The notes beneath the pieces are model-generated. The model was not told where the DNA came from, searched no databases, and saw nothing but the letters and a program-made list of their open reading frames with translations. Shown in pieces: positions 5,152-24,210 of a DNA stretch of 24,210 bases (the first letter of the stretch is position 1; each line of letters starts with the position of its first letter). The stretch is from a virus. The stretch lies in the IMG/VR virus record IMGVR_UViG_3300033145_001347, positions 1-24,210 of that record, one strand, 5' to 3'. Both the position numbers and the translations under genes were made by a program.

Positions 5152-5169
5152 TTTTTAAAAGGAGGCAGG

Positions 5170-6660: not shown

Positions 6661-6668
6661 GTTAAGAA

Positions 6669-6929: not shown

Positions 6930-6974
6930 TGAGATTGATGAGGGCAGGGATAAAGTACAGGGTTTAGGGGATCA

Positions 6975-6994
6975 TACTGTATAAATGTACAGTA
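6975..6994. promoter_or_regulatory. LexA-type SOS box
   Basis: TACTGTATAAATGTACAGTA matches the E. coli LexA consensus (CTGT-N8-ACAG, AT-rich spacer) at 18 of 20 positions by my reading. A possible -10 (TATAAA) lies inside it. It is 20 bases upstream of the ATG at 7014, in an otherwise short gap. It implies damage-responsive control of the downstream early genes if the host or a phage protein reads this box type. Confidence 0.65.
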
Positions 6995-7013
6995 GTTTTT
7001 GGGAGGGAAGATT

Positions 7014-7316
7014 ATGAAAAATCTGTCAGTGAGGGATCTCACAAAAGCGGAGTTGATTAAGGTTCTGGAGGCGGCGCTGTTTACTCCTTTGTCGCAAAAA
7101 ACGATAGCAGCATTCGTGGCTGCAAGAAAGGCCAGACAGGGGTTTGTTATAATTAAAGAGGCGAACGGGAAAATCGCCAGGGCGGATAAAATAAAAAATC
7201 GTGAAAAAAAAGCAGGCGAGTTGTTTAAGGCAAATCGCCTGCTGATCAAGGGTAGCGGGCTGATAGAAGAGGCGAATTGTCTGACGAAAACGTATTTGCC
7301 GGATAATTTTGGATAG
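7014..7316 (+). CDS. Small basic early protein downstream of an SOS-type box
   Basis: The 100-residue protein is basic, helical and unrecognised. It contains alternating hydrophobic and Lys-rich stretches (AAFVAARKARQGFVIIKEANGK; then DKIKNREKKAGELFKANRL), typical of a nucleic-acid-binding or partner protein. The ATG at 7014 is preceded by GGGAGGG; a TTG at 6999 would start inside the ribosome site and is less likely. If the SOS-type operator is functional, this is the first gene it controls. Confidence 0.7.
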   Translation: MKNLSVRDLTKAELIKVLEAALFTPLSQKTIAAFVAARKARQGFVIIKEANGKIARADKIKNREKKAGELFKANRLLIKGSGLIEEANCLTKTYLPDNFG

Positions 7317-7333
7317 CTAAAAGGGAGCAATGA

Positions 7334-7543
7334 ATGTCGACGAAAGATATGCGGTTTTATCGTGATGAGCTGAATATGGATGAGTGTTTTTGTGAAAGAA
7401 GTAAAAAACCGGGCAGGCCGCTGTGTTACAAGTGTTATATGTCCTTGCCGGAAGATATGAAGCGGGATCTGTGGCAGAGGATCGGTAATGGTTATGAGGC
7501 CGCATATGATGCGGCTGTGAAGTGGTTAATACAGGAGGGATAA
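7334..7543 (+). CDS. Small four-cysteine zinc-binding protein
   Basis: The 69-residue protein has four closely spaced cysteines, C18, C20, C31 and C34, in CFCERSKKPGRPLCYKC, which should bind one zinc. A helical tail follows (SLPEDMKRDLWQRIG...EAAYDAAVKWL). Proteins of this form are common in early regions of Mu-like phages (recollection). It lies 17 bases after the previous gene and 2 bases before the next. DNA or protein binding is likely; nothing more specific can be said. Confidence 0.75.
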   Translation: MSTKDMRFYRDELNMDECFCERSKKPGRPLCYKCYMSLPEDMKRDLWQRIGNGYEAAYDAAVKWLIQEG

Positions 7544-7545
7544 AT

Positions 7546-8157
7546 ATGAGCGAAGTAAATATGGACGATTATATGGTGGATGCCCAGGAGCGGCTGGTCC
7601 CACTGGGCCTGGTGTCGGACATTGACAAGGCAAGAAACGACCTGGTCAAAGATCTGGTATCTAAGGCACGCGATCTGCAAAAAGCGATGTATGCGTTTAA
7701 ATGTAGCGCAATGGGCGATGTACAGGCGTTTGTAGAACTCTCTGCTGAAAAATATGATGTATCAATAGGGGGGAGAAAGGGAAACATATCGCTGGTAAGC
7801 TATGACGGTAAAGAAAAAATACAGGTCGCTATCAGCGAGCATCTCTCTTTTGATGAGCGCCTGCAGGCAGCTAAAAAATTAATAGATGAATGTATAACAA
7901 ACTGGACAGAGGGAAGCCGGGACGAAATCAAGGCCCTTATTAATGATGCCTTTCAGGTGGACAAAGAGGGCCGAATTAACACGGGCAGGATACTGGGCCT
8001 GCGCAGGCTGGAGATACAGGATCAAAGATGGCTAAAAGCGATGCAGGCGATCTCGGACAGCCTGCAGGTTGTAGGAAGTAAAACATATATTCGGATATAT
8101 GAACGATCACTGAATGATAAATGGACCCCGTTGTCGCTGGATTTGGCGGCTTTGTGA
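7546..8157 (+). CDS. DUF3164 family Mu-like early protein
   Basis: The 203-aa sequence matches the DUF3164 pattern through its length: an N-terminal helical part (VPLGLVSDIDKARNDLVKDLV), the central KGNISLVSYDGKEKIQVAI, then DECITNWTEGSRDEIKALINDAF, GRINTGRILGLRRLEI and the near-terminal SKTYIRIYER. The family is a regular early-region member of Mu-like phages with no established biochemical role. I chose ATG 7546 because AGGAGGG lies just upstream; the frame is open further left without a ribosome site. It is in tight operon with the zinc protein before it. Confidence 0.88.
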   Translation: MSEVNMDDYMVDAQERLVPLGLVSDIDKARNDLVKDLVSKARDLQKAMYAFKCSAMGDVQAFVELSAEKYDVSIGGRKGNISLVSYDGKEKIQVAISEHLSFDERLQAAKKLIDECITNWTEGSRDEIKALINDAFQVDKEGRINTGRILGLRRLEIQDQRWLKAMQAISDSLQVVGSKTYIRIYERSLNDKWTPLSLDLAAL

Positions 8158-8372
8158 TAAGGGCAGGGATTAAGGGCAGGGATTAGGGATCAGGGAAAAA
8201 GCAGGGATTAGGGATCAGGGAAAAAGCAGGGATAAAGGGCAGGGGTCAGGGAATAGGGGTTAGGGGTTAGGGGTTTTTGAGCAGGCTACGCCTGCGATCC
8301 CTGATCCCTGATCCCTAATCCCTGCTTTTTCCCTGACCCCTGCCCTTTATCCCTGCCCTTCCCCTGCCCTCG
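8158..8372. repeat. Large G-rich heptamer repeat and hairpin
   Basis: This gap between DUF3164 and gemA is entirely degenerate GGGRTYA words. Bases 8227-8253 are the exact reverse complement of 8329-8355 (27 bp). The centre holds the same GCAGGCTACGCCTGC hairpin (8281-8295) as the element at 6519-6660. On the plus strand the left arm is G-rich and could form G-quadruplexes; RNA would fold into a very stable stem. Confidence 0.9.
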
Positions 8373-8398
8373 ATATTTGCAAATGGTTTGAGAAAAAA

Positions 8399-8827
8399 AT
8401 GACAATATCAAATAATCAAAAAGCTGTTGTACATATTGCAGCCGGGCAAATCGGGCTGGAAAAGGACGCATACAGGGATGCCTTGTATGCGCATGCAGGT
8501 GTGAGAAGTGCGAAAGACCTTGACTATAAGGGCTTTAAGGCTGTGATGGAGCACTTTGAAAAATCCGGTTTTCAAGGCACACAGAAAAAAAACAGGAGCC
8601 AGAAGCGAAAAAATGCACGCCCGGGCATGGCCTCAGAGCCGCAATTGAAAAAGATTTTTGCGCTCTGGTTTTCGATGCCTGCCGGATATTATGATCCGGG
8701 CAAAGAGTTTGACGCGCTGCGAGGGTTTTTGAAAAAACGATTCGGGGTGGAACATGAGAATTTTCTGAAATTTAAAACGGCGCATAAGGTTATTGAGGCT
8801 TTGAAGAGTATTGTGCGCAGGGGTTAA
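8399..8827 (+). CDS. gemA: GemA-like regulatory protein (DUF1018, Mu gp16)
   Basis: The protein fits the GemA/gp16 family: an N-terminal block with QIGLEKDAYRDALYAHAGVRSAKDLDYKGFKAVMEHFEKSGF, a basic linker (about residues 60-75), then a C-terminal block (EPQLKKIFALWF to LKFKTAHKVIEALKSI). In Mu, GemA modulates host gene expression and DNA supercoiling. Length (142 aa) is slightly under the usual 150-190. The start follows the repeat element directly and has only a weak GAG as ribosome site. The stop runs into the next G-rich repeat. Confidence 0.88.
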   Translation: MTISNNQKAVVHIAAGQIGLEKDAYRDALYAHAGVRSAKDLDYKGFKAVMEHFEKSGFQGTQKKNRSQKRKNARPGMASEPQLKKIFALWFSMPAGYYDPGKEFDALRGFLKKRFGVEHENFLKFKTAHKVIEALKSIVRRG

Positions 8828-8892
8828 GGGCAGGGGAAAAGCAGGGATTAGGGGTCAGGGATCGGGGATTAGGGGTTAGGGGAAGGGGAGAG
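8826..8892 (+). repeat. G-rich heptamer repeat
   Basis: About nine degenerate GGGRTYA words (GGGATTA, GGGGTCA, GGGATCG, GGGTTA types) fill the gap between gemA and the next gene. The last G-rich word also provides the purine-rich ribosome site for ATG 8901. Confidence 0.85.
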
Positions 8893-8900
8893 GGGCGCTG

Positions 8901-9164
8901 ATGCAAATAAAAATCGGTGATAATGTAAAAATGACCAGGCGGCCTTATTTCTCGGGCATTGTAAAAATGGGCCAGTTCTCGCTGTTTGGCGGGGATATTA
9001 CATTTTTTATCCAATGGACGTTTAAGCCGGACGGCTGGTGCAGCAAAACGCCGATTGAAAAGGATGATTTAAAATTGGTCGAGCAGGGATCGGGGATCAG
9101 GGGAAAAGCAGGGATTAGGGGTCAGGGATCGGGGATCAGGGATCAGGGGAACTACAGGGGTTAG
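8901..9164 (+). CDS. Small beta-rich protein with repeat-derived tail
   Basis: Residues 1-61 look like a compact SH3-like beta barrel: IKIGDNVKMTRRPYFSGIVK and ITFFIQWTFKPDGWCSK. Residues from about 62 (EQGSGIRGKAGIRGQGSG...) are pure translation of the G-rich heptamer repeat, so the original protein probably ended near 9083 and lost its stop to repeat insertion. No function can be assigned. A GGGGAGAGGGG stretch serves as ribosome site. Confidence 0.6.
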   Translation: MQIKIGDNVKMTRRPYFSGIVKMGQFSLFGGDITFFIQWTFKPDGWCSKTPIEKDDLKLVEQGSGIRGKAGIRGQGSGIRDQGNYRG

Positions 9165-9178
9165 GGATTAGGGGGAGG
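9084..9178 (+). repeat. G-rich heptamer repeat
   Basis: About a dozen GGGATCA/GGGATTA/GGGGTCA words run through the 3' end of the preceding gene and up to the ribosome site of the next. Same family and orientation as the arrays at 6519, 8158 and 8826. Confidence 0.85.
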
Positions 9179-9185
9179 ATTGCAA

Positions 9186-9422
9186 ATGAGCTGGAACTCT
9201 TATCGCGGAATACGCATGGGATTTTCTTATATGGGTGCATACCATAAAGCTGAAAAAAGTAAAATCCCTTCTTCGCTCTATAAATATTTTAAAATTTTAC
9301 CAACTAAGGAATGTATAACCATCAAACCAACTCTGGCAAGAAAAGCCAAGCCTTTGGTAGTTTGCTTTTCGTGCAGGTTATTAGGACATTATAAAACCTT
9401 GAGACTCCGAGAAAGGATTTGA
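9186..9422 (+). CDS. Doubtful small basic protein
   Basis: A 78-residue reading frame from ATG 9186 has a good ribosome site (GGGGGAGG) and its stop is one base from the next gene's start. The sequence is basic and low in acidic residues (KAEKSKIPSSLYKYFKILPTKE; ARKAKPLVVCFSCRLLGHYK), with no recognisable domain. The sharp change in base composition from the early operon marks the start of the accessory block. It could be a gene remnant rather than a functional protein. Confidence 0.35.
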   Translation: MSWNSYRGIRMGFSYMGAYHKAEKSKIPSSLYKYFKILPTKECITIKPTLARKAKPLVVCFSCRLLGHYKTLRLRERI

Positions 9423-9423
9423 G

Positions 9424-9915
9424 ATGAAAAAGATAGAAATGACAATCGAATGCCCACACTGCGGAGGCGCTGGAATATATGCCGGTATGGGTGAAGGCGA
9501 TGGAACAGCAGTTGTTTGTTATTACTGTAATGGGACCGGAGCATATAATTATTCTTATTCCTATAAAGATTTCACCGGAAGAAAAGAGAAGGATGGGGTT
9601 AAACGGGTGTATCTCAATGGGACGGGATACAAACTCGGCCTTGGCAAGATTAATTTTGCCGGTATCGGTGAAATCGACATGGATAAAGAGGGTGTCTCTT
9701 ATTCTGAATTTCTTAATGGTAAAAAACCTACTCATATCAAAAAATTGGGATGCCCTATGTTAACAGATCAGGGAGCTTGTCACGACATTAATGGTTTTGT
9801 TGATGAATGTAATAATCTTCATGGCGGTTGGATTGGGCATATATCAGAATGCAAATACCGTGGGGATAAAGAAAAATGCTGGCAACGATTTGAAAACGGC
9901 AGTTCGGTTTTATAA
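9424..9915 (+). CDS. DnaJ-type zinc-finger protein, function unknown
   Basis: Residues 10-40 hold two CxxCxGxG-type knuckles, CPHCGGAG (C10/C13) and CYYCNGTGA (C32/C35), the spacing of a DnaJ central zinc finger. The remainder contains a Tyr-rich stretch (YNYSYSYKDF) and several further cysteines near the C-terminus (CPMLTDQGACHD, CKYRGDKEKCW) that may bind a second metal. It has no J domain. It is an accessory-block gene, probably soluble. A chaperone or RNA-binding role cannot be told apart from sequence. Confidence 0.6.
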   Translation: MKKIEMTIECPHCGGAGIYAGMGEGDGTAVVCYYCNGTGAYNYSYSYKDFTGRKEKDGVKRVYLNGTGYKLGLGKINFAGIGEIDMDKEGVSYSEFLNGKKPTHIKKLGCPMLTDQGACHDINGFVDECNNLHGGWIGHISECKYRGDKEKCWQRFENGSSVL

Positions 9916-9918
9916 CCT

Positions 9919-10000
9919 GTCAGTGCAGTGGATTCGCTTCGCTCACCACTGACTTTAATCGTAAATAGCTCACTGGCAGGCAGGGTTGTGCCGCCAGTGA
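9919..10000. other. Two adjacent hairpins between accessory genes
   Basis: GTCAGTG at 9919-9925 pairs with CACTGAC at 9947-9953 around a partly paired inner stem. TCACTGGC at 9970-9977 pairs with GCCAGTGA at 9993-10000, with an inner GGCA/TGCC stem. No T run follows either. They could be RNA processing sites or a decayed recombination site; compare the attC-like site after the next gene. Confidence 0.55.
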
Positions 10001-10022
10001 TGGCCGATGCAAAGGGGAGATT

Positions 10023-10214
10023 ATGAATTTTGAAATGATGTTTTATTTATTAATTGCTTTTATTGTAGGCAGATTAAGCAAAAAGAAAGTCTATATTGGT
10101 TATGATGAAAAAAAATATCAATCGGCTGATCTCGGTATAATGTTAAAAGAACGAAAATATAACAAATCATTGGAGCCGACCGCCACTACCGAGCCGAAAA
10201 CAAAAACCGAGTAG
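10023..10214 (+). CDS. Small single-span membrane protein
   Basis: The 63-residue protein has one N-terminal hydrophobic segment (residues about 5-16, FEMMFYLLIAFIVG) followed by RLSKKK, so the C-terminus should be cytoplasmic. The tail from NKSLEPTATTEP onward is translated from the attC-like site, a typical way for an integron-cassette gene to end. AAGGGGAG precedes the start. Function unknown. Confidence 0.55.
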   Translation: MNFEMMFYLLIAFIVGRLSKKKVYIGYDEKKYQSADLGIMLKERKYNKSLEPTATTEPKTKTE

Positions 10215-10237
10215 GGCGGCTCAATTCAGACGTTAGG
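10160..10237 (+). other. attC-like integron recombination site
   Basis: The sequence folds like an attC hairpin. TAAC at 10160-10163 pairs with GTTA at 10232-10235 (R boxes; R' reads GTTAGGA). A 5-6 base unpaired spacer lies on each side. TTGGAGCCG at 10170-10178 pairs with CGGCTCAA at 10217-10224 with one extrahelical G (10173), as in attC L boxes. It is preceded by a small ORF whose stop lies inside the site, as in cassettes. The R' box ends in A rather than a pyrimidine. No integrase gene is visible, so this would be an isolated cassette. Confidence 0.5.
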
Positions 10238-10305
10238 AGGGCAAGAGCACTAAAGGAAAAATAAATAATGGTAATTCCGCTCAGGCTGAATAAAAGCAGA
10301 AATAA

Positions 10306-10674
10306 TTATTTTTCAATAACCCATGTATCAATCGGCAAATTATAATGTTGAATAGTGGAATTCAAGCGTATCCAGTATCTACGATCTTTTTCGTGTTCCA
10401 GGATCAGGACAATTCCCGGTTTTTTGCCGGTTTGAAGGCCGTAATAAAGAGATTGACCAATCGCCTCGGCCCACTTGTGCTGCCCGAAGTCAAACTCTAT
10501 GGCGTGGGTTTCAGTAACGCAATCGCACCTGGTGCGATCAGGCAAAACAACTTCCGTCTGCCCGCCACGATCTGCGCACCAGCGTGATTGATAATATTTT
10601 TCGGGGTGCAGGCGCTTGGCGTGACAGCAAACAGCCGACAGCAAGATTAACAATGCTATAAGTAGTTTTTTCAT
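10306..10674 (-). CDS. Exported protein with possible PD-(D/E)XK-like core
   Basis: Residues 1-19 form a classical Sec signal peptide (MKKLLIALLILLSAVCCHA) with a likely cleavage after A19. The mature part contains TRCDCVTETHAIEFDFGQHKWAEAI-type sequence: D51, then E60 and D62, K67 and an alpha-helix with Q74. This layout recalls PD-(D/E)XK nucleases, and I recall exported proteins of this form in other genomes, but the fit is by eye. Four cysteines could form disulfides in the periplasm. It is on the opposite strand to its neighbours, which suggests an independent cargo gene. Confidence 0.65.
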   Translation of the reverse strand: MKKLLIALLILLSAVCCHAKRLHPEKYYQSRWCADRGGQTEVVLPDRTRCDCVTETHAIEFDFGQHKWAEAIGQSLYYGLQTGKKPGIVLILEHEKDRRYWIRLNSTIQHYNLPIDTWVIEK

Positions 10675-10677
10675 AAG

Positions 10678-10792
10678 CTGATTATATTCAAGCTCTTTTG
10701 AAAGATCAAATAAAAAGTCGAATCCACTGAAAGGCTTTGGCGGATTTGACAGGGATGAACAGAAACTGTATTAAAAAATGCAATATAATCAG
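10678..10792. repeat. 11-bp inverted repeat bounding a 93-bp gap
   Basis: CTGATTATATT at 10678-10688 is the exact reverse complement of 10782-10792. The pair lies just upstream of two divergent exported-protein genes and could mark a small insertion or regulator sites. The enclosed sequence has no ORF. AGTCGCT (10791-10797) and AGCGACT at about 10839-10845 form a second, weaker pairing next to it. Confidence 0.45.
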
Positions 10793-10868
10793 TCGCTCAA
10801 CCCGACGGCACAAAGCACCGGAGGTCTTGGAAAAACATAAGCGACTCTAACTTAACGGAGGATTAATT

Positions 10869-11264
10869 ATGAAATGTTTTTGCAGGTTTATATTGTTGTC
10901 AGTTTTCTTAATGGTCTCTTATAGCAATTTGTCTTACGCTGATGATAAAGAAAATATGGCAAAAAATGCGGTGGTTTATCATTGGGACGATGTAATAGTA
11001 GTCAACGTTCACGTGGACAGGCATTATTCTGTTAATGAAATTAAATGCATATCGAGTTACATCAAGTATCAAACTTACTATCAGTATAATTTAAAAAAAT
11101 TTCCGGTTTGTGTTGTCACCTATTTTACAGACAAGAATAAGATACCTGTTGTGGGAGATCCTTGGGAGGTTGGGGGCTGGGAATATCAGTATGTGATAAA
11201 CAGGCAAATGAAGCAAGAGTTTTTATATGCAGTTGTCGATGGTAAAACCATAAGAATACAATAA
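10869..11264 (+). CDS. Exported protein of unknown function
   Basis: An N-terminal signal peptide (about residues 1-25, ending SYA before DDKEN) precedes a beta-rich mature domain with repeated aromatic residues (YHWDDVIVVNVHV, YIKYQTYYQYNLKKF, WEVGGWEYQYVI). CGGAGGA gives a good ribosome site. No family was recognised. Low GC and isolated position fit a cargo gene expressed in the lysogen. A signal peptide means it acts in the periplasm or outside. Confidence 0.6.
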   Translation: MKCFCRFILLSVFLMVSYSNLSYADDKENMAKNAVVYHWDDVIVVNVHVDRHYSVNEIKCISSYIKYQTYYQYNLKKFPVCVVTYFTDKNKIPVVGDPWEVGGWEYQYVINRQMKQEFLYAVVDGKTIRIQ

Positions 11265-11529
11265 AAATTCCCTCGCAAATGAAAAAAACCTTGACAAATA
11301 AAACAAACTACCCTAAACGTGAAGGTACTATTTCAACAAGCGGCTATTCCGCGCCCGTCAGCAGCGGTTTTTTTATGCCTCATTTCAGGGTAGAATCGTC
11401 TATATGGCGGGTCAAGAGGGTCGAATACAATACCCGCAAGGGAAATAAGCCCCGCCGTCTTGTTGCGGTAGTTGAGACCCGCCACTCATCATTTTTGGCG
11501 AAACAACTAATCAACAAGGAGGCAACATC
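11265..11529 (+). other. Structured leader upstream of the BRO-N gene
   Basis: GGCGGGTC at 11406-11413 pairs exactly with GACCCGCC at 11476-11483, enclosing smaller stems (GGGT/ACCC near 11418-11434). CCGC...GCGG followed by seven T at about 11350-11378 looks like a weak terminator. An ORF can be read across (11279-11533), but its product is basic, serine-rich and unlike a folded protein. I recall similar non-coding-looking leaders in front of BRO/antirepressor-like genes of other prophages, which cannot be verified here. Confidence 0.45.
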
Positions 11530-12162
11530 ATGACTACCGAGGCAAACGCAGGCCATATCAGGCCAGACACAACCCCGTTAAAAAACAAAGAACATGCATT
11601 GGTAAAATTTGGACTCGATCCGAACAAGATCATCCAGGAGGATGGACGTTACTGGATGACAGCAAAAGAGATCGGGAAGGCTCTTGGCTATAACGACCCA
11701 GCTAATTCAATGAACAGGTTGTACGGTCGCCACAAGGACGATCTTGAGCCTTATAGAGGCAAAGTCAATTTGACCGATCACCTCGGGATATCCCATGAAA
11801 CAAGCATCTTCAACACAGATGGTATGTGGATGTTTGCTATGTTCGCTAAAACTCCAAAGGCCAAAAAGTTCCGCAAATTCATCGTCAACATGCTAAAAGC
11901 TCTTGAGCGCCAGGAATTTATCCACGTCAGCCAGGTCATGCAGTGGAAAAAGGAGTTGATTGAGCTCAGGATCGGAAAACAGATCCAGAACAGCAGGGCT
12001 ATGGACTGGAATAAATACAACAGGATGATCCGGTACCGGGACATGGGCCTGACCCAGAGAGAGACCGCAAAGCTTCTCGACATCAGCCGTGATGTTGTTC
12101 AGCAGTTCGAGCGCATCGCCAGACAATACGAGCTGAAGCTTGTGTCAGGAGGTGCCGCATGA
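11530..12162 (+). CDS. BRO-N domain regulator with C-terminal HTH
   Basis: Residues about 25-128 match the BRO-N (antirepressor-like) pattern: RYWMTAKEIGKALGYNDPANSMNRLYGRH, then SIFNTDGMWMFAMFAKTPKAKKFRKFI. BRO-N domains bind DNA and are common in phage antirepressors. The C-terminal part has a helix-turn-helix at about 173-193 (GLTQRETAKLLDISRDVVQQFERI). AAGGAGG precedes the start. The protein ends by overlapping the next gene (ATGA). Its position before the late operon suggests control of the early/late or lysis/lysogeny switch. Confidence 0.8.
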   Translation: MTTEANAGHIRPDTTPLKNKEHALVKFGLDPNKIIQEDGRYWMTAKEIGKALGYNDPANSMNRLYGRHKDDLEPYRGKVNLTDHLGISHETSIFNTDGMWMFAMFAKTPKAKKFRKFIVNMLKALERQEFIHVSQVMQWKKELIELRIGKQIQNSRAMDWNKYNRMIRYRDMGLTQRETAKLLDISRDVVQQFERIARQYELKLVSGGAA

Positions 12163-12646: not shown

Positions 12647-12678
12647 TCATTACTAATTTTTTGAAAGGAAATGCTGCT

Positions 12679-13542
12679 ATGGCTAAGCTTTTCAATGAGG
12701 ACGGTCTAAAAAAGGCCATAAGAGATCGGTCCTTTATCAAAAATGGGGCCGAATCTTGCGCGGAAGGTGGTAAATATGATTTTAGGTTAGGCAAACGAAT
12801 TCTCAAGGCATCATTTAAAAGGCCCATTGATGTTGATCGTTTAACTGAAATCGAAAAAGTAAGCCTTTGTGTAGACCCTGGCGAGATAGTTTTTGTACTT
12901 ACTGAAGAAACCTTAGCTTTGCCGATAGACATCAAGGCCGAGTTGAGCTTTAAGAGAAAATTAAGCCATGCAGGTATACTTGTCTTGGGCGGATTTTGTA
13001 TTGACCCTCTTTATCAGGGCAAACTTCTTTTTGGTATTTATAATTTTTCCTCAAGTCCTTTTCCTCTTATTCCAGAAAAAAAATTTATTGCCGCTCAGTT
13101 TTATAGATTATCAGAAAATGAGACATCAAAAGATACTCCAGCACCCCAGTCTGTTGAGGATTTTCCGGAGGATCTTATTAAGCTCATGGATAATTATAAG
13201 CCCTCTTCGCTTGGCGCCATCGAAAAATCACTAAAAGAGCTGTCCCGTGAAGTGGAGGTGTTAAGAGATGATCTGCGCTCAAGAGAGGATTGGTTTAAAT
13301 CATTTCAAGAGAAATTAGACCGAAGCTTTGAGCTGACCACAAAAAATGTGGCCAGCATTGAACGAATTGCGGAGAGCTTAAAAGAAGAAACTCAAAACCG
13401 AAAAGAAACAGAAAAAGTATTTAGAGAAGACCTTAGAACAATCCAAAAATCTTCAATTAAATCCGGAACAGCCATAGGGATTATTACCGCTATTGTCGTC
13501 GGGATTGTTATATATGTTTTAACTAAAACATTACCATTTTAG
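12679..13542 (+). CDS. Membrane-anchored, degenerate dCTP deaminase/dUTPase-fold protein
   Basis: Residues about 12-145 follow the dCTP deaminase/dUTPase (DCD) fold: GGKYDFRLGKRI, VDPGEIVFVLTEETLALP, then GGFCIDPLYQGKLLFGIYNF and the hydrophobic core FIAAQFYRL. By alignment from memory, the deaminase signature RSSLAR is replaced by KRKLSH and the catalytic Glu position by Gly119, so catalysis is unlikely while ligand binding may persist. A Pro-rich linker (146-176) leads to a coiled coil (178-258) and a C-terminal transmembrane helix (263-282) with a 5-residue tail, placing the DCD domain in the cytoplasm. ATG 12679 follows AAGGA; TTG 12661 is an alternative. Own consensus promoter and terminator mark it as a moron, possibly a nucleotide sensor or superinfection-exclusion protein. 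Confidence 0.7.
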   Translation: MAKLFNEDGLKKAIRDRSFIKNGAESCAEGGKYDFRLGKRILKASFKRPIDVDRLTEIEKVSLCVDPGEIVFVLTEETLALPIDIKAELSFKRKLSHAGILVLGGFCIDPLYQGKLLFGIYNFSSSPFPLIPEKKFIAAQFYRLSENETSKDTPAPQSVEDFPEDLIKLMDNYKPSSLGAIEKSLKELSREVEVLRDDLRSREDWFKSFQEKLDRSFELTTKNVASIERIAESLKEETQNRKETEKVFREDLRTIQKSSIKSGTAIGIITAIVVGIVIYVLTKTLPF

Positions 13543-15535: not shown

Positions 15536-16129
15536 ATGACGAAAAAACAAAAACGAACCGGCAGGGGCTTGTTGTCAACCATCGACCAGTTGCCGGAAGA
15601 TATCCGGGTGGGTATTAACGCGGCCCTGCGCGAGCGCCGTTTGACTCAGGAAGATATCCGGAAACATTTTAATGAGTTGTTGGAAAAAGGCGGCGGCAAG
15701 CCGGTGAGCCGGAGCGCGTTCAACCGGTACAGCATCCAAATCGAAGAAAAGGGCTCCCTGCTCAGGGAAGCCCGCGAGGCGGCCAATGCGCTGGTTGGCG
15801 GATTGGGAGAACAAGGGGGCACGGATCTGGGCCGGGCCGTGACCGAGCTTGTAAAAACACTGGCATTCGACCTGGTGATCAAGGGCCAGGGCAAAGACGA
15901 CGAGGGCGAAAATGAGCCGATCGGCGTTGATACGCTAAATAAAGTCGCTCTCATCTCCCAGCGGATCGAGCGGGCCAGCAAGATCAGCCTGGACCGGGAA
16001 TTGAAAATCAGGGATGAAGCGAGGGCCAAGGCGGTCAAGGCCGTGGAAGCCGAGGCCCAAAAGCAGGGCGCAGGAGCGGCAACCATTGACGCGCTGCGGG
16101 CCGCAATCATGACGGAGTTGAGCGCATGA
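15536..16129 (+). CDS. Mu gp27-like small terminase subunit (DUF3486)
   Basis: The 197-aa protein matches DUF3486: LSTIDQLPEDIRVGINAALRERRLTQEDI near the N-terminus (a helix-turn-helix type DNA binder), then SRSAFNRYSIQIEEKG and a helical C-terminal half. Mu gp27 is the presumed small terminase that recognises phage DNA. I chose ATG 15536 with AAAAGG rather than the open reading from 15464, which translates repeat. The stop overlaps the large terminase start (ATGA). Confidence 0.88.
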   Translation: MTKKQKRTGRGLLSTIDQLPEDIRVGINAALRERRLTQEDIRKHFNELLEKGGGKPVSRSAFNRYSIQIEEKGSLLREAREAANALVGGLGEQGGTDLGRAVTELVKTLAFDLVIKGQGKDDEGENEPIGVDTLNKVALISQRIERASKISLDRELKIRDEARAKAVKAVEAEAQKQGAGAATIDALRAAIMTELSA

Positions 16130-17613
16130 GCGCTGTATTGCTGCCATATCAGATCCGATGGATCGAAGATACGTCTCCGGTCAAGATCATCGAAAAAGGC
16201 CGCCGGATCGGTCTGTCCTATTGCGAGGCGTCGGATGCCGTGCTTTATGCGGCGGACGCGGACCGGGGCGCGAATGTTTATTACATTTCTTACGATAAGG
16301 AAATGACCTCCGGATTCATCCAGGACTGCGCCTCATGGGCCACGGTGTTTCATGCCGCAGCCGGGGAGATCGGAGAACAGATCTTGACCCGGGATGACGG
16401 CCGGGATGTCCATGTGTACGATATTCGGTTTGCCAGCGGGCATTCAATTAAAACATTTTCAAGCAACCCGCGAAACCTCAGAAGCAAAGGCCGCCCCGGA
16501 GAACGCCTGATCGTGGATGAAGCGGCGTTTGTGGATGACATTGAAGAATTGCTGAAAGCCGCAATGGCCATGACCATGTGGGGAGGGACCGTCCGGATCA
16601 TCAGCACTCACAACGGCGATGAAAATCCGTTTAACGGATTGATCTCCGATGCACGGGCAGGCAAAAACGATTATTCGATTCATCGCGTAACCTTAGATGA
16701 CGCATTAAACGACGGGCTTTATAAAAAAATATGCAATGTCACGGGCAGGCAATGGAGCCAAGAGGACCAGGATAACTGGCGCGGCCAGCTCGTTAAGCGA
16801 TACCGACCGAACGAGGACGAAGAACTATTTTGCATTCCGGCATTTGGCGGCGGGGCATATCTTCCCCGTGCGCTGGTGGAAGCCTGCATGGCGGATGCGC
16901 CGTTGCTTCGTTTTGACGGGACACGGGCGTTTAATCTCGAAAAAGAGCCCGCCCGCCGCGCTGAAATGGCGGATTGGATTAATGACATTTTAAATCCGGC
17001 ACTGGCCAAGCTCGACCAAGCCAGGCGGCATGTTTTTGGAATGGATTTCGCCCGTGTAGGTGACATGACGGATATCGTGCCTCTTGAGATCGGTGCGACC
17101 CTGCATAACCGGTGGCCGTTTGTGATTGAACTGCACAATGTTCCCTACAAACAACAGGAACAAGTCACCCTGGCGCTCGGTAACGGGCTTCCCAGATTCG
17201 GCGGATGCAGTATCGATGCCGGTGGAAACGGCGGATTTATTGCGGAGTCAGCCACCGACGCCTGGGGTGAATTCATGGTGGATTCCATTCATTTCACCGA
17301 GCAGTTTTACCGGGATGAATTCCCGAAATACAAGGCCGGATTCGAAGACCGGACCACCAAAATCGTCCGCCATGACGATGTGCTGGAAGATCACCGGGCT
17401 ATCAAACTGGTTCGCGGTGTTCCGAGAGTTCCGCAGGGCAAGACCGACAAGGCCGGGGAACGCCACGGCGACAGCGCAATAGCCGGTCTTTTGGCGGATT
17501 TTCGAAGTCGGCAGGATGTTTCCGTAATGCCCAATATTGTGACTGCCGGGACAAGTCAGATGGGTGAGCAGGTGGCCGGGTATCATGGGCGGGTGAATTA
17601 TCTGGCGTACTAA
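16126..17613 (+). CDS. Mu gp28-like large terminase subunit
   Basis: It powers DNA packaging and cuts the concatemer or host junction. The ATPase half has a Walker-A-like EKGRRIGLS (residues 23-31), and Walker B GERLIVDEAA (D131/E132) followed by a coupling motif IISTHNGDENPF (158-169). The RNase H-like nuclease half has GMDFARVGDMTD, SIDAGGNGGF and a late HGDSAIAGLLAD, supplying acidic residues. 495 aa is normal. The start overlaps the gp27-like stop, and the pair works as the terminase complex. Confidence 0.93.
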   Translation: MSAVLLPYQIRWIEDTSPVKIIEKGRRIGLSYCEASDAVLYAADADRGANVYYISYDKEMTSGFIQDCASWATVFHAAAGEIGEQILTRDDGRDVHVYDIRFASGHSIKTFSSNPRNLRSKGRPGERLIVDEAAFVDDIEELLKAAMAMTMWGGTVRIISTHNGDENPFNGLISDARAGKNDYSIHRVTLDDALNDGLYKKICNVTGRQWSQEDQDNWRGQLVKRYRPNEDEELFCIPAFGGGAYLPRALVEACMADAPLLRFDGTRAFNLEKEPARRAEMADWINDILNPALAKLDQARRHVFGMDFARVGDMTDIVPLEIGATLHNRWPFVIELHNVPYKQQEQVTLALGNGLPRFGGCSIDAGGNGGFIAESATDAWGEFMVDSIHFTEQFYRDEFPKYKAGFEDRTTKIVRHDDVLEDHRAIKLVRGVPRVPQGKTDKAGERHGDSAIAGLLADFRSRQDVSVMPNIVTAGTSQMGEQVAGYHGRVNYLAY

Positions 17614-17665: not shown

Positions 17666-19843
17666 ATGAAACTCTGGCTGAATGAGACGAAATTCATCGA
17701 GCTTAACGACCGTAAATCCCTGAGCGCGGAGATTGCCGCCAGATCACGATCCGTGGACTGGATGGGGATATGGGCGTTGCTGCCTGATCCGGATTCGGTT
17801 CTTGAAAAAACAGGACAGGGGGTTGCCGTATATCGCCAGTTACTCGCTGACGCCCATGTCTGGAGCTGTTACCAGAGCCGGAAATCAGGGACATTATCAT
17901 GCGAATGGAAGATCAATGAAGCGAAAGAAGGTTCAATCCGGCAAAACAAAAACGGTTATAAAATTATCGAAAATCTTATGAACTCTCTCGATGTATATCA
18001 GATCATCACCGACATGCTCGATGCGCCGTTTTTCGGGATGTCTCCACTCGAGGTGATCTGGCAAAGCTCGAAAAATTCCTGGCTGCCGGAACGGATCGAG
18101 GGAAAACCTCCGGAATGGTTCGCGTTCGACCCGGAAAACAGGCTCAGATTTATGTCGCGAGACAATATGACGGACGGCGAGGAGATCCCGGAGTATAAAT
18201 TTCTGCTGCCCCGGCATCATGCAAGTTACCAGAATCCATACGGAGAGCGGGTTCTATCGAGATGTTTCTGGCCGGTGGTCTTTAAAAAGGGCGGATTCAA
18301 ATTCTGGGCTATATTTACGGAAAAATACGGGATGCCCTGGTTAGTGGGCCGGGTGCCGAGATCGACGAACGAGACAGAGCGGGGAGCGCTCCTGACGAGA
18401 TTGACCTCAATGGTTCAGGATGCGGTGGCCGTGATCAATGATGATGAGAGTGTGGAGCTGAAAGAAAGTGGCTCCAAATCCGCCTCCGCGGACATCTATG
18501 AAAAGCTGATCAGCGTATCGAACCGTGAGATATCAAAGGCCATTTTGGGGCAGACCCTGACGACAGAGCTCGATAAGGGCGGCTCTTTCGCGGCCACAAA
18601 AGAACACATGGAAGTCAGGGCTGATCTGGTGGATCAGGATAAACGGATGATCTCCCAGGCGTTTAACATTTTGTTTTCATGGATCATCGAGTTCAATGCG
18701 CAGGGCGCGGCGGTTCCTGCATTTGCATTCTTTGAAGAGGAGGATATTCAAAAAGAGCTGGCCAAACGGGATGAAACCCTGACAAAGCAGGGCGTTACAT
18801 TCACAAAGCAATATTATCAGCGCGTATACAATCTGCAGGAGACGGATTTTGAAGTCGGGGCGCCCCGGGTCGAAGGTTCGGAGTCGGAGGGCGGAGGTCA
18901 GTTTGCCGAGGGGGATGAGGATGTTCACGGGTCAGCGGTGGATAAACTGGCGGAAAAAAAAATCTCCGAAGCCGCCCTGATCTTTGAAAATTACAATAAA
19001 CAGATCAAATCTTTTTTGGGGAAAGCTGATTCCTTAAAAGCCGCCCAAAATAATATTATCGATATTTTCGACCGGATGGATCCCGGGCCATTTGTAAAAA
19101 TCCTGGCATCGACAATGCTTGAAGCGGACCGGGTCGGTGTTCAAAGCATTGCCGGCAGCGAATTCGGCGAAGCCTTCTGGGGTCCGGGACTGCCGTTTGA
19201 AGAGGCGATCGATTATTTTAAAGCCAGAGCGTTTAAAATATCGGGCATAGCCAAAGCCGACCTGCTGGCTGACATCAAAGATGAAATCATTTTAGCGATG
19301 GAGGACGGTTCGACGCTCGATGATTTTAAAAAACAGACCGATGCGCTCTTTGAAAAGCACGGCTGGGACAAACTGCATCCGTATCGGATCGACACGATAT
19401 TTAAAACCAATATGCAGGCGGCGTATCAGGCCGGACGGTACCGGCAAATGATGTCACCGGCGGTTTTAAACGCGCGGCCGCACTGGCGATATGTGGCTGT
19501 CCTGGACGGATCGACAAGGCCGGAACATGCGGTCCTGGACGGAAAGATCTTTCCGCATGATCATTCTTTCTGGGATACGTGGTATCCGCCGAACGGGTTT
19601 AACTGCCGGTGCACGGTGCAGACGGTTTCAGAACGTGAGATGGAGCGGGAAGGGTGGAAGGCTGAAACCAAAGATCCGACCGGCAAATTGATAGAGCCGG
19701 TCGATCCGGTTACCGGACACAAGATGCCGGCCAGGCTCCTGATGCCGGACCAGGGATGGGATCGCAATGCAGCCAAAGAACAGTATCAGCCGGATCTGAA
19801 AAAATATGAGCCGAAATTAAGAAAAAAACTGGAAGGTATTTAG
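17666..19843 (+). CDS. Fused portal (gp29/DUF935) and F-type head morphogenesis protein
   Basis: Residues about 1-480 are a DUF935 portal protein: MLDAPFFGMSPLEVIW, FAIFTEKYGMPWLVG and GGSFAATKEHMEVRADLVDQD are typical. Residues about 510-665 are the Mu F/SPP1 gp7 domain: FEEAIDYFKARAF, TNMQAAYQAGRYRQM and the signature STRPEHAVLDG...YPPNGFNCRCTV. In Mu these are two genes; here they share one 725-aa frame with an acidic, Gly-rich linker (about 400-425). The portal forms the vertex through which DNA enters. The F part helps build the head and may be cut or injected. Confidence 0.9.
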   Translation: MKLWLNETKFIELNDRKSLSAEIAARSRSVDWMGIWALLPDPDSVLEKTGQGVAVYRQLLADAHVWSCYQSRKSGTLSCEWKINEAKEGSIRQNKNGYKIIENLMNSLDVYQIITDMLDAPFFGMSPLEVIWQSSKNSWLPERIEGKPPEWFAFDPENRLRFMSRDNMTDGEEIPEYKFLLPRHHASYQNPYGERVLSRCFWPVVFKKGGFKFWAIFTEKYGMPWLVGRVPRSTNETERGALLTRLTSMVQDAVAVINDDESVELKESGSKSASADIYEKLISVSNREISKAILGQTLTTELDKGGSFAATKEHMEVRADLVDQDKRMISQAFNILFSWIIEFNAQGAAVPAFAFFEEEDIQKELAKRDETLTKQGVTFTKQYYQRVYNLQETDFEVGAPRVEGSESEGGGQFAEGDEDVHGSAVDKLAEKKISEAALIFENYNKQIKSFLGKADSLKAAQNNIIDIFDRMDPGPFVKILASTMLEADRVGVQSIAGSEFGEAFWGPGLPFEEAIDYFKARAFKISGIAKADLLADIKDEIILAMEDGSTLDDFKKQTDALFEKHGWDKLHPYRIDTIFKTNMQAAYQAGRYRQMMSPAVLNARPHWRYVAVLDGSTRPEHAVLDGKIFPHDHSFWDTWYPPNGFNCRCTVQTVSEREMEREGWKAETKDPTGKLIEPVDPVTGHKMPARLLMPDQGWDRNAAKEQYQPDLKKYEPKLRKKLEGI

Positions 19844-19851
19844 GTTGAGAT

Positions 19852-20409
19852 ATGCCGGTCAACCTTGAAATTAAAGCAAAGGATCAACGGGTTTACAACC
19901 TTTTACAGCGGATCCAGAGAAAATTCGGGAATTTCAAGCCGGGCCTGGAGATTATCGGAGAGACCGTGCAGGCCTCGATCTCGCGCAATTTTGAAAAAGG
20001 GGGGCGCCCCGGATGGAAAGAATTGTCTCCGGTGACTAAAAAAATCAGGAAGAAAAAGAGAAAATGGCCGGGCTGGATACTGGTTGTGTCCGGGGCGCTC
20101 AAGAGTATCAGCGACAGGATCGGGAAAGACCGGGTCACCCTGTCCGCAAATAAAAAATATGCGGCGCTCCAGCAATTCGGCGCAAAAAAGGGATCATTCG
20201 GCGAAATAGAGGCCAACATTAAGGCGCATATACGAAAAATCACCCGGGCATTCGGACGGCCTGGAAAGCCTCGCAAGGTTTCCGTGCGCGCGCATACCCG
20301 GAAGATGAAGCTTCCCTGGGGCGATATACCGGCGAGGCCGTTTATGATGGTGCAAGATGAAGACTGGGACGAGATCAGGGAATCCCTGAATGATTTTATT
20401 TTGAGATGA
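19852..20409 (+). CDS. Virion morphogenesis protein (Mu gpG-like, Phage_tail_S)
   Basis: The 185-aa basic protein matches the gpG/tail-completion S family: GETVQASISRNFEKGGRPGWKELS, a central basic loop (KKIRKKKRKWPGW), GALKSISDRI, then YAALQQFGAK and the terminal PARPFMMVQDEDWDEI. Mu gpG is involved in head assembly or maturation. It follows the portal-F fusion directly and its stop overlaps the upstream frame of protease I. Confidence 0.88.
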   Translation: MPVNLEIKAKDQRVYNLLQRIQRKFGNFKPGLEIIGETVQASISRNFEKGGRPGWKELSPVTKKIRKKKRKWPGWILVVSGALKSISDRIGKDRVTLSANKKYAALQQFGAKKGSFGEIEANIKAHIRKITRAFGRPGKPRKVSVRAHTRKMKLPWGDIPARPFMMVQDEDWDEIRESLNDFILR

Positions 20410-20423
20410 GGAAGGAGGTAATG

Positions 20424-21581
20424 ATGAAAAATTTCAAAGGTTTCGATGACTGGATCGAGATATTCAAGGGTGGGAAGCAGATCGACAGCCAGGGCCGGGA
20501 ACATGATGGGGATGCGCTGATTGACAGAGCTGTCAATAATTTCAATACGGCAAACCACGAGCCGCCTCTTGTGGCAGGGCATCCGAAAGATAACTCCCCG
20601 GCATTTGGCTGGGTAGCAGGTCTGAAAAAGGTCGGCAACTCGCTGTATGCCAAATTTAAGGACGTGGTTCCGGAATTTCAGGCGGCTGTTAAAAACGGGA
20701 GGTACAAGAAACGGTCCGCAAGTTTTTACCCTGACGGCCGGCTGCGACACGTGGGGTTTTTAGGGGCCGCGCCTCCTGCAGTGAAGGGTCTGGCCGATCT
20801 CAGTTTCAGTGATGATGATTCGACCACGTTCGATTTTGAGGAGACAAGTCCCTGGACCTGGTCTTCGATTGCCGGGGTGTTCCGGAAGCTTCGCGATTAT
20901 CTTATCGAGAAAGAGGGCATTGAGAAAGCAAATGAACTGATACCCGATTGGGAAATCGAAGAGATAAAAGAGGCGCAGAGAAAGGCCGAAACAACCGGAA
21001 CCGATGAGACCGGTTTCGGCGACAACATAAACACTAATCAAGGAGGAAAAGAGATGAACTTCAGAGAAAAGGTCAAGAGTATGTTTAGCACCCTCGGCGT
21101 TGACATGAGCAAGGTTCCTGATGAGGCAATCCCTGATTCGGCCCCGGACGGTACACCCACGTCATTCACAGAAGCCGATCTGGAAAAGGCCAAGAAAGAC
21201 GCTGCCGAGTCCGAACGCAAGAAAGCGGACGCAGAGTTTGCGGAAAAACAGCGTCAGGCCGCCAAATCCGCACGAGACAGGGAGATCTCGGACTGGGCCG
21301 GCCAAAGGGTTAAGGACGGCAAGCTACTGCCAGCCTGGGTCGATTCCGGGCTTGTGGCGTTTGCACAGAACCTTGACGGTGATGAGGTGATCCAGTTTGC
21401 AGAGGGTGACGGGAAGAAAAGCCCTCAGCAGTGGTTCAAGGATTTCTTAGAGGGATTCGGGGAGTCGGCAATCTTCAAGGAGCTGGCCACAAAGGCGGCC
21501 GCAGGCGATACGGCCGAGTTCGCTGAGTCGAAACAACAGCAGGAATTGGGCGAATCCATCGCTGCGAAGGTGAACGGGTAG
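20424..21581 (+). CDS. I: Mu protease I-like capsid maturation protease
   Basis: Residues about 1-130 form the Mu-I protease domain (GFDDWIEIFKGG, PPLVAGHPKDNSPAFGW, KKRSASFYPDG, RHVGFLGAAPPAVKGL). H53, S98 (or S100) and H109 are candidate catalytic residues, judged by pattern only. The C-terminal half is a scaffold domain, also made separately from an internal start. I chose ATG 20424, 5 bases after AGGAGG; ATG 20406 and ATG 20421 are in frame upstream. The protease trims the scaffold during head maturation. Confidence 0.88.
   Translation: MKNFKGFDDWIEIFKGGKQIDSQGREHDGDALIDRAVNNFNTANHEPPLVAGHPKDNSPAFGWVAGLKKVGNSLYAKFKDVVPEFQAAVKNGRYKKRSASFYPDGRLRHVGFLGAAPPAVKGLADLSFSDDDSTTFDFEETSPWTWSSIAGVFRKLRDYLIEKEGIEKANELIPDWEIEEIKEAQRKAETTGTDETGFGDNINTNQGGKEMNFREKVKSMFSTLGVDMSKVPDEAIPDSAPDGTPTSFTEADLEKAKKDAAESERKKADAEFAEKQRQAAKSARDREISDWAGQRVKDGKLLPAWVDSGLVAFAQNLDGDEVIQFAEGDGKKSPQQWFKDFLEGFGESAIFKELATKAAAGDTAEFAESKQQQELGESIAAKVNG
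21054..21581 (+). CDS. Z: Nested scaffold protein (Mu Z-like), internal in-frame start
   Basis: A strong ribosome site (AAGGAGG, 21040-21046) and ATG 21054 lie inside the protease gene in the same frame, giving a 175-aa product. In Mu, gene Z uses the same trick: scaffold from the 3' part of I. The region is charged, Ala-rich and coiled-coil-like (TEADLEKAKKDAAESERKKAD), as expected for a scaffold. Confidence 0.8.
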   Translation: MNFREKVKSMFSTLGVDMSKVPDEAIPDSAPDGTPTSFTEADLEKAKKDAAESERKKADAEFAEKQRQAAKSARDREISDWAGQRVKDGKLLPAWVDSGLVAFAQNLDGDEVIQFAEGDGKKSPQQWFKDFLEGFGESAIFKELATKAAAGDTAEFAESKQQQELGESIAAKVNG

Positions 21582-21698: not shown

Positions 21699-22133
21699 AT
21701 GGCAGGGACATTAGGAGTTACAGAGACAACGGGGGCCGAACTCTCTCAGTTGATTGCATCCGATGTGCATATACAGCGAGAGATCACGCTAAAGGCATCG
21801 GCCGGGAATTTGAAACGCGGCACCGTGCTGGAAATGGTGAGCGTTGCCGGCGGCCAGTGGCAGCAATTGCAGGCAGCCGGCGGGGCAAATGCCCGGGCGA
21901 TTCTGCTCGAAGATGTGAGCGATTCAACTTCAACGCAAAGAGCCCAGGCTTATTTCGTCGGGAAATACAGGGAAAAAGACATGATCTGGCCCGCCGGCAT
22001 CACTACGCTGGAAAAGCGCAATGCGATCGTGGGAATGCAGGACAGGGGGATTATCATCGACGAGGCGATCCTGGCTGTGACCACGACGACCACGACAACA
22101 ACTACGACTACGACTACAACGACAACGGCGTAA
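21699..22133 (+). CDS. Head decoration protein with poly-threonine tail
   Basis: Residues about 1-125 match the phage head-decoration family (lambda D-like, HDPD type): GAELSQLIASDVHIQREITLKASAGNLKRGTVLEMV, ILLEDVSDSTSTQRAQAYFVG and RNAIVGMQDRGIIIDEAI. Such proteins cap the capsid after expansion. The C-terminus carries 16 consecutive threonines (codons 22080-22127) then Ala. Codons are mixed (ACC, ACG, ACA, ACT), so this is selection for threonine or an old expansion, not a fresh slip. The tail should be exposed on the head surface. AAGGAGG precedes the ATG. Confidence 0.85.
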   Translation: MAGTLGVTETTGAELSQLIASDVHIQREITLKASAGNLKRGTVLEMVSVAGGQWQQLQAAGGANARAILLEDVSDSTSTQRAQAYFVGKYREKDMIWPAGITTLEKRNAIVGMQDRGIIIDEAILAVTTTTTTTTTTTTTTTTA

Positions 22134-22216: not shown

Positions 22217-23227
22217 ATGGATGATCTTTTCAAAATCAGAGTATTAACGGCGGCGATTAATGCCATGAAGGCGGCGTCCATGAAGGTCTATAACAGGATT
22301 TTCAGAGGCAGGGAACACATGGAACCGAGCGACAGGCTCGCATTCGAGGTGATCTCCGGCAGCGAGAAGATATTGAAAAATATCTCAGTATATGCGCCTG
22401 CCGAGGTCACGGACAAAACAGGCAGGAAGATCGTGACCCTGACCGCGCCCAGGCTGGCGCAAAAACGTTTTATCCATACCGCGGAGCTTAATGCGCTCCG
22501 GGCATACGGGGCGCAGTTCGGCCTTGAACAGATGAAAACGCGCATTGCGAGAGAACAGGTGGATATGCGGGGGATCATGGACAGGACCCTGGAATACTGG
22601 GCCGTCAATGCCCTCAAGGGCAAAATCCTTGATTCCGACCTGGAAACGGTATTAGTCGATTACAACATGGCCGATAGCCACAAGGTCACTCTGACCGGCA
22701 CCAGTCTCTGGACCAATGCGAGCAGCGACCCCGTCAACAAATTCCGGGCATTCAAAAAACTGATCGAGGATGATTCGGGCGCGGCCATAACCGGATGGCT
22801 GGCATATATGGGATCGGAGGTGATGGATGCGCTGCTCCAGCACACGAAAATTCGCGAGTTGCTGAAGTACGGCAAGGGCGTCCAGGTGGCCGAGAACGGC
22901 AAGGTCACGAAGCTGGCCGAGGTCGAACTCGATGAGTATAACGGCTCATTCCTCGATGAGAACGGGACCAGGCGCAGATTTATAGATGAGAAATATATCA
23001 TGCTGGTAGGGCTTTGCGCGGATCTCGTTGATGTGCCTTATGCTCCGATCGTTGACAGCAAGGCGCCCGGGGGCGTAGGGAATATCGACGCCAGTGGCAG
23101 CGGCGCCCTTTATTTCTCGAAGGCATGGGAAGAGGACGATCCCAGCGGTCAGTGGATCAAAGCTGAGACCCGGCCTTTACCCGTGCTGCAGCGTCCCGGC
23201 GCGGTCATCTACGCCAAGGTAGTGTAG
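22217..23227 (+). CDS. Major capsid protein, lambda gpE-like (Phage_cap_E)
   Basis: The 336-aa protein resembles the lambda E family: VTLTAPRLAQKRFIHTAELNALRAYGAQFGLEQMKTRIAREQVDMRGIMDRTLEYWAVNALKGKIL is the hallmark central region, followed by a C-terminal PVLQRPGAVIYAKVV. It forms the HK97-fold head shell. In Mu itself this place is held by gpT, a different family, so the head shell here is of lambda D/E type. AGAAGGAGG precedes the start. Confidence 0.85.
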   Translation: MDDLFKIRVLTAAINAMKAASMKVYNRIFRGREHMEPSDRLAFEVISGSEKILKNISVYAPAEVTDKTGRKIVTLTAPRLAQKRFIHTAELNALRAYGAQFGLEQMKTRIAREQVDMRGIMDRTLEYWAVNALKGKILDSDLETVLVDYNMADSHKVTLTGTSLWTNASSDPVNKFRAFKKLIEDDSGAAITGWLAYMGSEVMDALLQHTKIRELLKYGKGVQVAENGKVTKLAEVELDEYNGSFLDENGTRRRFIDEKYIMLVGLCADLVDVPYAPIVDSKAPGGVGNIDASGSGALYFSKAWEEDDPSGQWIKAETRPLPVLQRPGAVIYAKVV

Positions 23228-23253
23228 GGACAATGGGACCCGGATTTATCCGT

Positions 23254-23283
23254 GCATGGGCAAACCTGTGTGTTTGCCCATGC
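23254..23283. repeat. Perfect 12-bp hairpin after the capsid gene
   Basis: GCATGGGCAAAC at 23254-23265 pairs with GTTTGCCCATGC at 23272-23283 around a 6-base loop. No T run follows, so it is more likely a REP-like element, RNA processing site or mRNA end stabiliser than a terminator. It follows the most highly expressed gene of the operon. Confidence 0.65.
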
Positions 23284-23361
23284 AAACTGACCCGGAGAGT
23301 GGGCGAAACGGAGAGCCGGGGAAAAAGTGAAACGGAAAAGAAACGAGAATACATCAAAACC

Positions 23362-23394
23362 GTTGAACCCCTGAACCCTGAACCCTGAACCCTT
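23362..23394 (+). repeat. CTGAACC heptamer repeat
   Basis: TTGAACC, (C)CTGAACC, CTGAACC, CTGAACC words run up to the weak ribosome site (TGAGG) of the next gene. A sixth instance of a 7-bp repeat at a gap in this phage. Confidence 0.75.
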
Positions 23395-23406
23395 TGAGGT
23401 TTTGCC

Positions 23407-24210
23407 ATGCTTACAATACAACAAATCCTGAACAAGGTCCGTGTCGATGAAAACGGGGACGCCATCTCGTCAATAGAGAGCGAACAGCAGGCGATTAATG
23501 CGGTTTATGATGAGACGGAAAATGCGCTACGGATGAACGTACTTAATCCGACTCTTATCGCAGCATATAGCCCCGCCCATTACGAGCGCGATATTCTTTG
23601 GGCGCAAAAGGGCAAAGTAGCGGCTGCTGATCGATATACGCTTGAGTCTCCCAACGCAACCTGGGACACCACGGAAGGGACTGATTATACCGTGGCCGCA
23701 AACAGGGCCGGCAAGGATTTTTATATCTATGCATGCCAGCCGTCGAGCGGGTCTGTCCCGGATCTAATAGTCTCCGCCAACTCGACTGTGCCCAGCGGTT
23801 ATACTGCCGAAAATTCCAGGAAGATTGGAGGTTGTCATTGCCTGTGTGTCGATGCCGGGACAATAGCAGGACATAACCTTACCGGTTTTGTCGCAGGCGA
23901 TATTTTACCTGCCTCTATTTGGGACCTGGTTTTTCGCCCGATAGCCGAACCTGCCGGGATGGTATGGAGTGATGCAGCGCAGGTATGGGTAGACATTTAT
24001 ATTGCAAGTGGCACTGGGTCTTCTACTGCCAGCGTGTATGGCGGAGCAATTTCAGACGATAGAAACTGGATGGATTTTGTCGATGACTTTGGTGCGGTCA
24101 AAAAACAATTACTTGATGATGTAGAATTTCAGTTGATTGCCTCAAATTCGAACGAAGAGACGAATATCGCAGGATCTGCGGATCCTGGTACTACAGGTGG
24201 ACACTCGGAT
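23407..24210 (+). CDS. 5' part of a putative DGR target protein (C-type-lectin/FGE fold), cut by window end
   Basis: The frame is open from ATG 23407 for 268 codons to the last base. Residues 1-45 (MLTIQQILNKVRVDENGDAI...QQAINAVYDETENALRMN) form a short N-terminal helix region. A middle domain contains GYTAENSRKIGGCHCLCVDAG. From about 170 it resembles the C-type-lectin-like/formylglycine-enzyme-like domain of DGR variable proteins: DILPASIWDLVFRPIAEPAGMVW, WVDIYIASGTG, DRNWMDFVDDFGAVKKQLLDD and NEETNIAGSADPGTTGGHSD, a stretch I know from DGR targets. The variable region should lie near the missing 3' end. TGAGG is the ribosome site. Confidence 0.8.
   Translation, partial: MLTIQQILNKVRVDENGDAISSIESEQQAINAVYDETENALRMNVLNPTLIAAYSPAHYERDILWAQKGKVAAADRYTLESPNATWDTTEGTDYTVAANRAGKDFYIYACQPSSGSVPDLIVSANSTVPSGYTAENSRKIGGCHCLCVDAGTIAGHNLTGFVAGDILPASIWDLVFRPIAEPAGMVWSDAAQVWVDIYIASGTGSSTASVYGGAISDDRNWMDFVDDFGAVKKQLLDDVEFQLIASNSNEETNIAGSADPGTTGGHSD

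Follow-up and report, generated by a model that had tools for sequence, protein, structure and literature searches.

The target of the BPP-1 diversity-generating retroelement (DGR) has been described as a tail fibre (PMC6199706). For the Mu-like phage Mushu, the proposed DGR target is a Hoc-like head decoration protein (PMC5883640, PMC11792537), and Bacteroides Hankyphage, likewise transposable with a Mu-like transposase, also carries a DGR (PMC6199706). DGRs in Mu-like phages are thus already known. In this study, we analysed a window that comprises a whole virus record of 24,210 bp, whose final ORF (23407–24210, plus strand) is still open where the record stops. This ORF has an ATG start, spans 268 codons, and holds the 5′ part of an Mtd-family DGR variable-protein gene, stopping before the variable region (VR). 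The gene probably encodes a variable protein of a Mu-like phage that is the target of a BPP-1-type DGR.

Based on profile matches, the record covers the early genes and the head genes of a Mu-like transposable phage. Encoded are a repressor-like HTH protein, a MuA-type transposase (2782–5151; phrog_310, 1.4e-87), a MuB-type ATPase (5170–5913; phrog_296), DUF3164, GemA, an amidase, and Gp27. Also encoded are the terminase large subunit (16126–17613; profile match), a Mu-type portal fused to a MuF-like domain (17666–19843; profile match), a virion morphogenesis/neck protein, the head maturation protease (20406–21581; phrog_976), a lambda D-like head decoration protein with a poly-threonine tail (21699–22133; profile matches), and the E-type major capsid protein (22217–23227; PF03864, 2.6e-58; phrog_29, 6e-52), and every gene given here with coordinates lies on the plus strand. 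The presence of MuA/MuB transposition genes together with Mu-type head genes in Mu order agrees with the first-pass annotation, which had assigned the DNA to a Mu-like phage. The threonine run of the decoration protein is long and lies at its C-terminal end; a similar Thr/Ser tail occurs in the third gene past the capsid in five related Mu-like records (L071, L072, L074, L075, and L078). At 12661–13542, a dCTP deaminase-like domain (PF22769, residues 15–141) is joined to a long C-terminal extension with a hydrophobic segment at its end. Furthermore, heptamer repeats of the GGGATCA/GAACCCT type occur at 3004–3125, 4929–4952, 6559–6641, 8186–8340, 8852, 9093–9148, and 23364–23392; they are intergenic but are also found within the MuA-type gene, as ENQGSGVRDQG units. 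Capsid relatives were sought in 285 Omnitrophota genomes to place the host, with two weak, partial matches only.

The final ORF had been described as a truncated gene carrying the motifs of C-type-lectin-fold DGR targets. The last base of the record does fall inside the ORF, and the quoted motifs EPAGMVW, WVDIYIASGTG, NWMDFVDDF, and SNEETNIAGSADPGTTGGHSD are all present verbatim. Residues 93–173 (23683–23925, plus strand) match the second, beta-sandwich domain of Mtd (PF21916, mtd_2nd) at 2.1e-19, with 70.3 bits against a cut-off of 24.6. Additionally, the ORF matches phrog_11262 ('tail protein') at 3.1e-35 and BPP-1 mtd at 33% identity over 176 aa (2e-10), and among named phages it matches a Methanosarcinales virus protein (53% identity) and a Chromohalobacter phage protein. 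In a Protein Data Bank search with the ORF protein, Mtd was the sole match (2.2e-12); ORF residues 88–263 align to residues 92–279 (PDB chain numbering) of the 381-residue Mtd. From this alignment, the start of the C-type-lectin/FGE-type region (EPAGMVW ... TTGGHSD) lies at 23947–24210 on the plus strand and is cut by the record end. The BPP-1 variable region starts, by coordinates, near Mtd codon 336, past the aligned part. As measured by PF21916, phrog_11262, and the Mtd structures, the resemblance is well above chance. Because of the PF21916, phrog_11262, BPP-1 Mtd, and PDB Mtd matches, the ORF is, as judged by homology, an Mtd homologue and not just a protein with C-lectin-like motifs. The identity as a DGR target is thereby borne out more specifically than it was claimed, as Mtd-family, and relatives of the ORF have a downstream reverse transcriptase (RT) and A-specific repeats. 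By profile searches, no capsid-decoration domain was found in the ORF, whose significant matches are to Mtd families only. The N-terminal 49 aa (23407–23553, plus strand) have no detectable relative; none was found in IMG/VR, in phage records, or among the neighbouring genes of the fetched loci.

The predicted fold of the truncated fragment is a poor model (pLDDT 52). In a full-length relative that is 57% identical over the shared part (L008), the predicted fold reached a pLDDT of 85, and a Foldseek search with this model returned five Mtd variants as the best matches (E 1.6e-19 to 5e-18, TM-scores 0.64–0.69). The next structural match after Mtd, a distant one, is a Thermus DGR variable protein.

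To place the ORF among its relatives, we collected 68 IMG/VR viral loci and 4 GTDB genomes. Of the 68 viral records, 35 contain a reverse transcriptase, which is 31–38% identical to BPP-1 brt; in the fetched loci, it lies just 3′ of Mtd on the same strand. Repeats were searched by ungapped comparison of the 3′ end of the Mtd gene with the downstream DNA, in which mismatches at template adenines were scored leniently, a possible source of bias. As a positive control, the annotated BPP-1 VR and template repeat (TR) were recovered at their exact coordinates, and moving the leniency to C, G, or T lowered the score of every pair found. When the 36 distinct templates are pooled, the VR differs at 677 of 1053 template adenines (64.3%), whereas the corresponding values are 8/971 for C (0.8%), 5/1286 for G (0.4%), and 27/1013 for T (2.7%). 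Many template adenines belong to AAY (Asn) codons, the usual situation in DGRs. A cassette census covered the 48 relatives whose sequence continues for 1.8 kb or more past Mtd, a set that includes BPP-1, vir525, and some near-duplicates; a template/variable pair was found in 37 of them, and a pair with a full reverse transcriptase in 34. Three (L001, L026, and L038) have an A-specific pair without a full-length reverse transcriptase and seem to be decaying DGRs. In a separate locus (L036), a 323-bp stretch is present in two copies (1–323 and 1179–1501) that are 94% identical, one of which includes the Mtd 3′ end; these are possibly two variable regions, that is, two targets, of one DGR.

Variation within the VR was observed between closely related records. 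L023 and L025, which are records of a single phage, show 6 differences over 6423 aligned bases, and 4 of the 6 lie within the 124-bp VR, every one opposite a template adenine. In the pair L051/L055, 12 of 143 VR positions differ, 9 of which are template-A sites, and the rate outside the VR is 0.45%. No VR difference was found in other near-identical pairs, including L008/L009 and L029/L030, and an exact-DNA search yielded no second contig of the Mu-like phage.

The 24,210-bp record itself contains neither a variable region nor a template nor a reverse transcriptase, and it ends ahead of the sites where they are expected. According to medians from the relatives, the VR would start 189 bp (154–622) past the record end, the stop codon 321 bp, the TR 429 bp, and the RT 650 bp. 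Among contigs that end within 1 kb of the matched Mtd part, 17 end on the 3′ side versus 4 on the 5′ side, as expected if variable and template repeats break assembly. The end of this record fits the same pattern, which by itself proves little. In the mechanism suggested by the relatives, a VR of about 110–140 bp would lie past the record end in the C-type-lectin tip, with a near-identical template repeat next and the reverse transcriptase after it. The enzyme would copy the template RNA, erring at adenines, and the mutated cDNA would take the place of the variable region, giving progeny with different receptor-binding tips. Such adenine-directed mutagenic retrohoming is established for BPP-1 and, by analogy, may alter the binding surface here. 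As for Mtd, the role of the protein would most likely be adsorption, and the N-terminal 49 aa are a possible virion-docking segment. Tail fibres are our first choice for the site of the protein, ahead of the head.

The gene had also been reported to lie next to the capsid gene, and the ORF indeed starts 179 bp after it. The intervening gap (23228–23406, plus strand) contains heptamer repeats (GAACCCT) and, 7 nt ahead of the ATG, a ribosome-binding-like GAGG site. The closest relatives of the capsid are Mu-like (L071–L076, 86–89%), with L077–L081 more distant. In those of L071–L081 with sequence past the capsid, the capsid gene is followed by neck-type genes, so labelled from gene order and likeness to Mu, with no Mtd between them and one small extra gene in L077. 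Because these relatives have no Mtd there, the Mtd gene was either added at this site or attached by a chimeric join. No reverse transcriptase was found in the 13 Mu-like capsid-relative records, most of which are short or fragmentary. Third-position GC is 0.47 in the Mtd part versus 0.59–0.70 in the head genes, which fits either a recent acquisition or a chimeric join, and by trinucleotide composition the Mtd stretch does not stand out within the record (30th percentile).

The capsid-adjacent position is uncommon for Mtd, yet it recurs in unrelated phages. A major head protein is encoded one to three genes 5′ of Mtd in L014 and L044/L045 (phrog_371), in L023/L025/L062 (phrog_10), and in L065 and L033 (phrog_267), and blastp detected no similarity among these three capsid families and that of the record. 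The Mtd stretches of L023 and L033 are 88% identical, yet their capsid families differ, so the cassette and the head genes have been exchanged as separate modules. Elsewhere, the cassette lies among tail genes, between the tail terminator and tape measure in L012 and 3′ of a tape-measure-like gene in L008; these neighbour classes were assigned for a chosen set of loci and carry no claim of frequency. Moreover, L044 and L045, from one sample, are 99.97% identical over 1–11686, from the head genes through Mtd, and diverge 2 bp ahead of the start of the L044 template repeat, which would reflect either recombination or a jump of the assembly at the DGR. In several relatives, small proteins whose N-termini resemble signal peptides, as judged by eye, are encoded 5′ of Mtd (L062:4909–5571, L065:6145–6567, and L024:670–1113), and in L062 and L065 they fall between capsid and Mtd.

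The presence of a DGR in this phage is likely, as judged from its relatives, and a cassette can be expected with fair assurance, not certainty, because in about a quarter of the relatives neither template nor reverse transcriptase is found nearby. Since 11 of the 48 relatives in the cassette census have neither of the two near Mtd, this copy could also be fixed, namely a receptor-binding protein of the Mtd family outside any active DGR, with template and RT lost and the variable region frozen. A DGR-like C-terminus is retained in several such relatives (L005, L013, L018, and L061), and the template persists without a full RT in the three loci with seemingly decaying DGRs. However, most relatives (34/48) have the full cassette, and the record stops where DGR-bearing contigs tend to break; we regard a frozen copy as unlikely. 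C-type-lectin DGR proteins and formylglycine-generating enzymes have a common fold, and weak Foldseek matches (E about 0.01) could be read as pointing to a cellular-type FGE/SUMF1 enzyme instead of a receptor-binding protein. In contrast, the Mtd-specific second domain is found in the ORF, and the Mtd structures score better than any such enzyme by about 16 orders of magnitude; the enzyme reading was rejected, and its probability is negligible.

The preferred reading, a DGR-diversified Mtd protein of this Mu-like phage, also has to be weighed against an artefact of assembly, in which a fragment of another phage's Mtd was fused onto the Mu-like phage past the capsid gene. Consistent with such a join are the neck-type gene that stands right after the capsid gene in the closest Mu-like relatives, the short GAACCCT repeats in the 179-bp gap where the join would fall, the lower third-position GC of Mtd than of the head genes, and a search for another contig with this Mtd start, which found none. 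However, the ordinary trinucleotide composition argues against a chimera, as does the capsid-adjacent Mtd of several unrelated phages, which makes the arrangement not odd in itself, and we consider a chimera quite improbable. The protein might instead be attached to the capsid, as a DGR-diversified head decoration or head fibre adhering to cells or surfaces, and not be a tail-fibre tip. The gene order, with the Mtd ORF lying directly past the capsid gene, agrees with this idea, as does the same placement near a major head protein across three other capsid families (L014, L044, L023/L025/L062, L065, and L033); a Hoc-like DGR target has also been reported for the Mu-like phage Mushu (PMC5883640). 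Against it, no head-binding domain was found and the N-terminus has no relatives, BPP-1 Mtd works on tail fibres (PMC6199706), the L012 and L008 cassettes lie among tail genes, and gene order alone does not fix the location in the virion. Collectively, head attachment is a possible but minority interpretation. The broader proposal, that Mtd-type cassettes have repeatedly taken up a capsid-adjacent position in unrelated phages, this Mu-like one among them, because the protein is head-mounted there, with targeted hypermutation serving head surface proteins, is slightly more doubtful still.

Compared with BPP-1 Mtd (PDB 1yu0–1yu4 and 2iou), the ORF has in common, by sequence, the second domain and the start of the C-type lectin, at about 33% identity, while its N-terminal 49 aa are unrelated; the full-length relatives are predicted to match the Mtd fold over its whole length. 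The relatives also have VR, TR, and RT in the same order and strand as the BPP-1 DGR (VR, TR, and brt), whereas the Mu-like record ends before the elements that BPP-1 shows. BPP-1 is a podovirus (PMC3863775), and its mtd comes after genes other than the capsid gene. In Caudoviricetes sp. vir525 (BK063673), a Methanosarcinales virus, vir525_00054 is a 53% identical Mtd-type protein of phrog_11262, with a template/variable pair and reverse transcriptase 00053 directly 3′ of it; this virus differs in being archaeal and in its other neighbouring genes. In ANMV-1 virus (KP703175), the DGR target gene adtA likewise has a reverse transcriptase after it, the latter 38% identical to that of vir525, but adtA gives no match to the ORF protein by tblastn. 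The open-access literature yielded no paper on Mtd-type cassettes beside a capsid gene, which is not proof of absence. With the present analysis, the transposable phages gain an Mtd-type target, and Mtd cassettes are placed beside the capsid gene in phages of at least four capsid families, that of the record included. If any capsid-adjacent Mtd protein is head-mounted, diversification by DGRs would extend beyond tail fibres. Among the transposable phages with DGRs, the target of Hankyphage had, in the published analysis, no similarity to characterised proteins (PMC6199706). Faecalibacterium phage FP_Mushu (MG711460) is also Mu-like and transposable, and its target was called a Hoc-like head decoration protein (PMC5883640), but that target is an Ig-repeat protein (PMC11792537), and the annotated genome has the cassette past the tail genes, at its right end, away from the capsid. 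The idea of a head-mounted DGR target, raised earlier by Mushu for an Ig-type protein, now becomes a testable question for the Mtd type.
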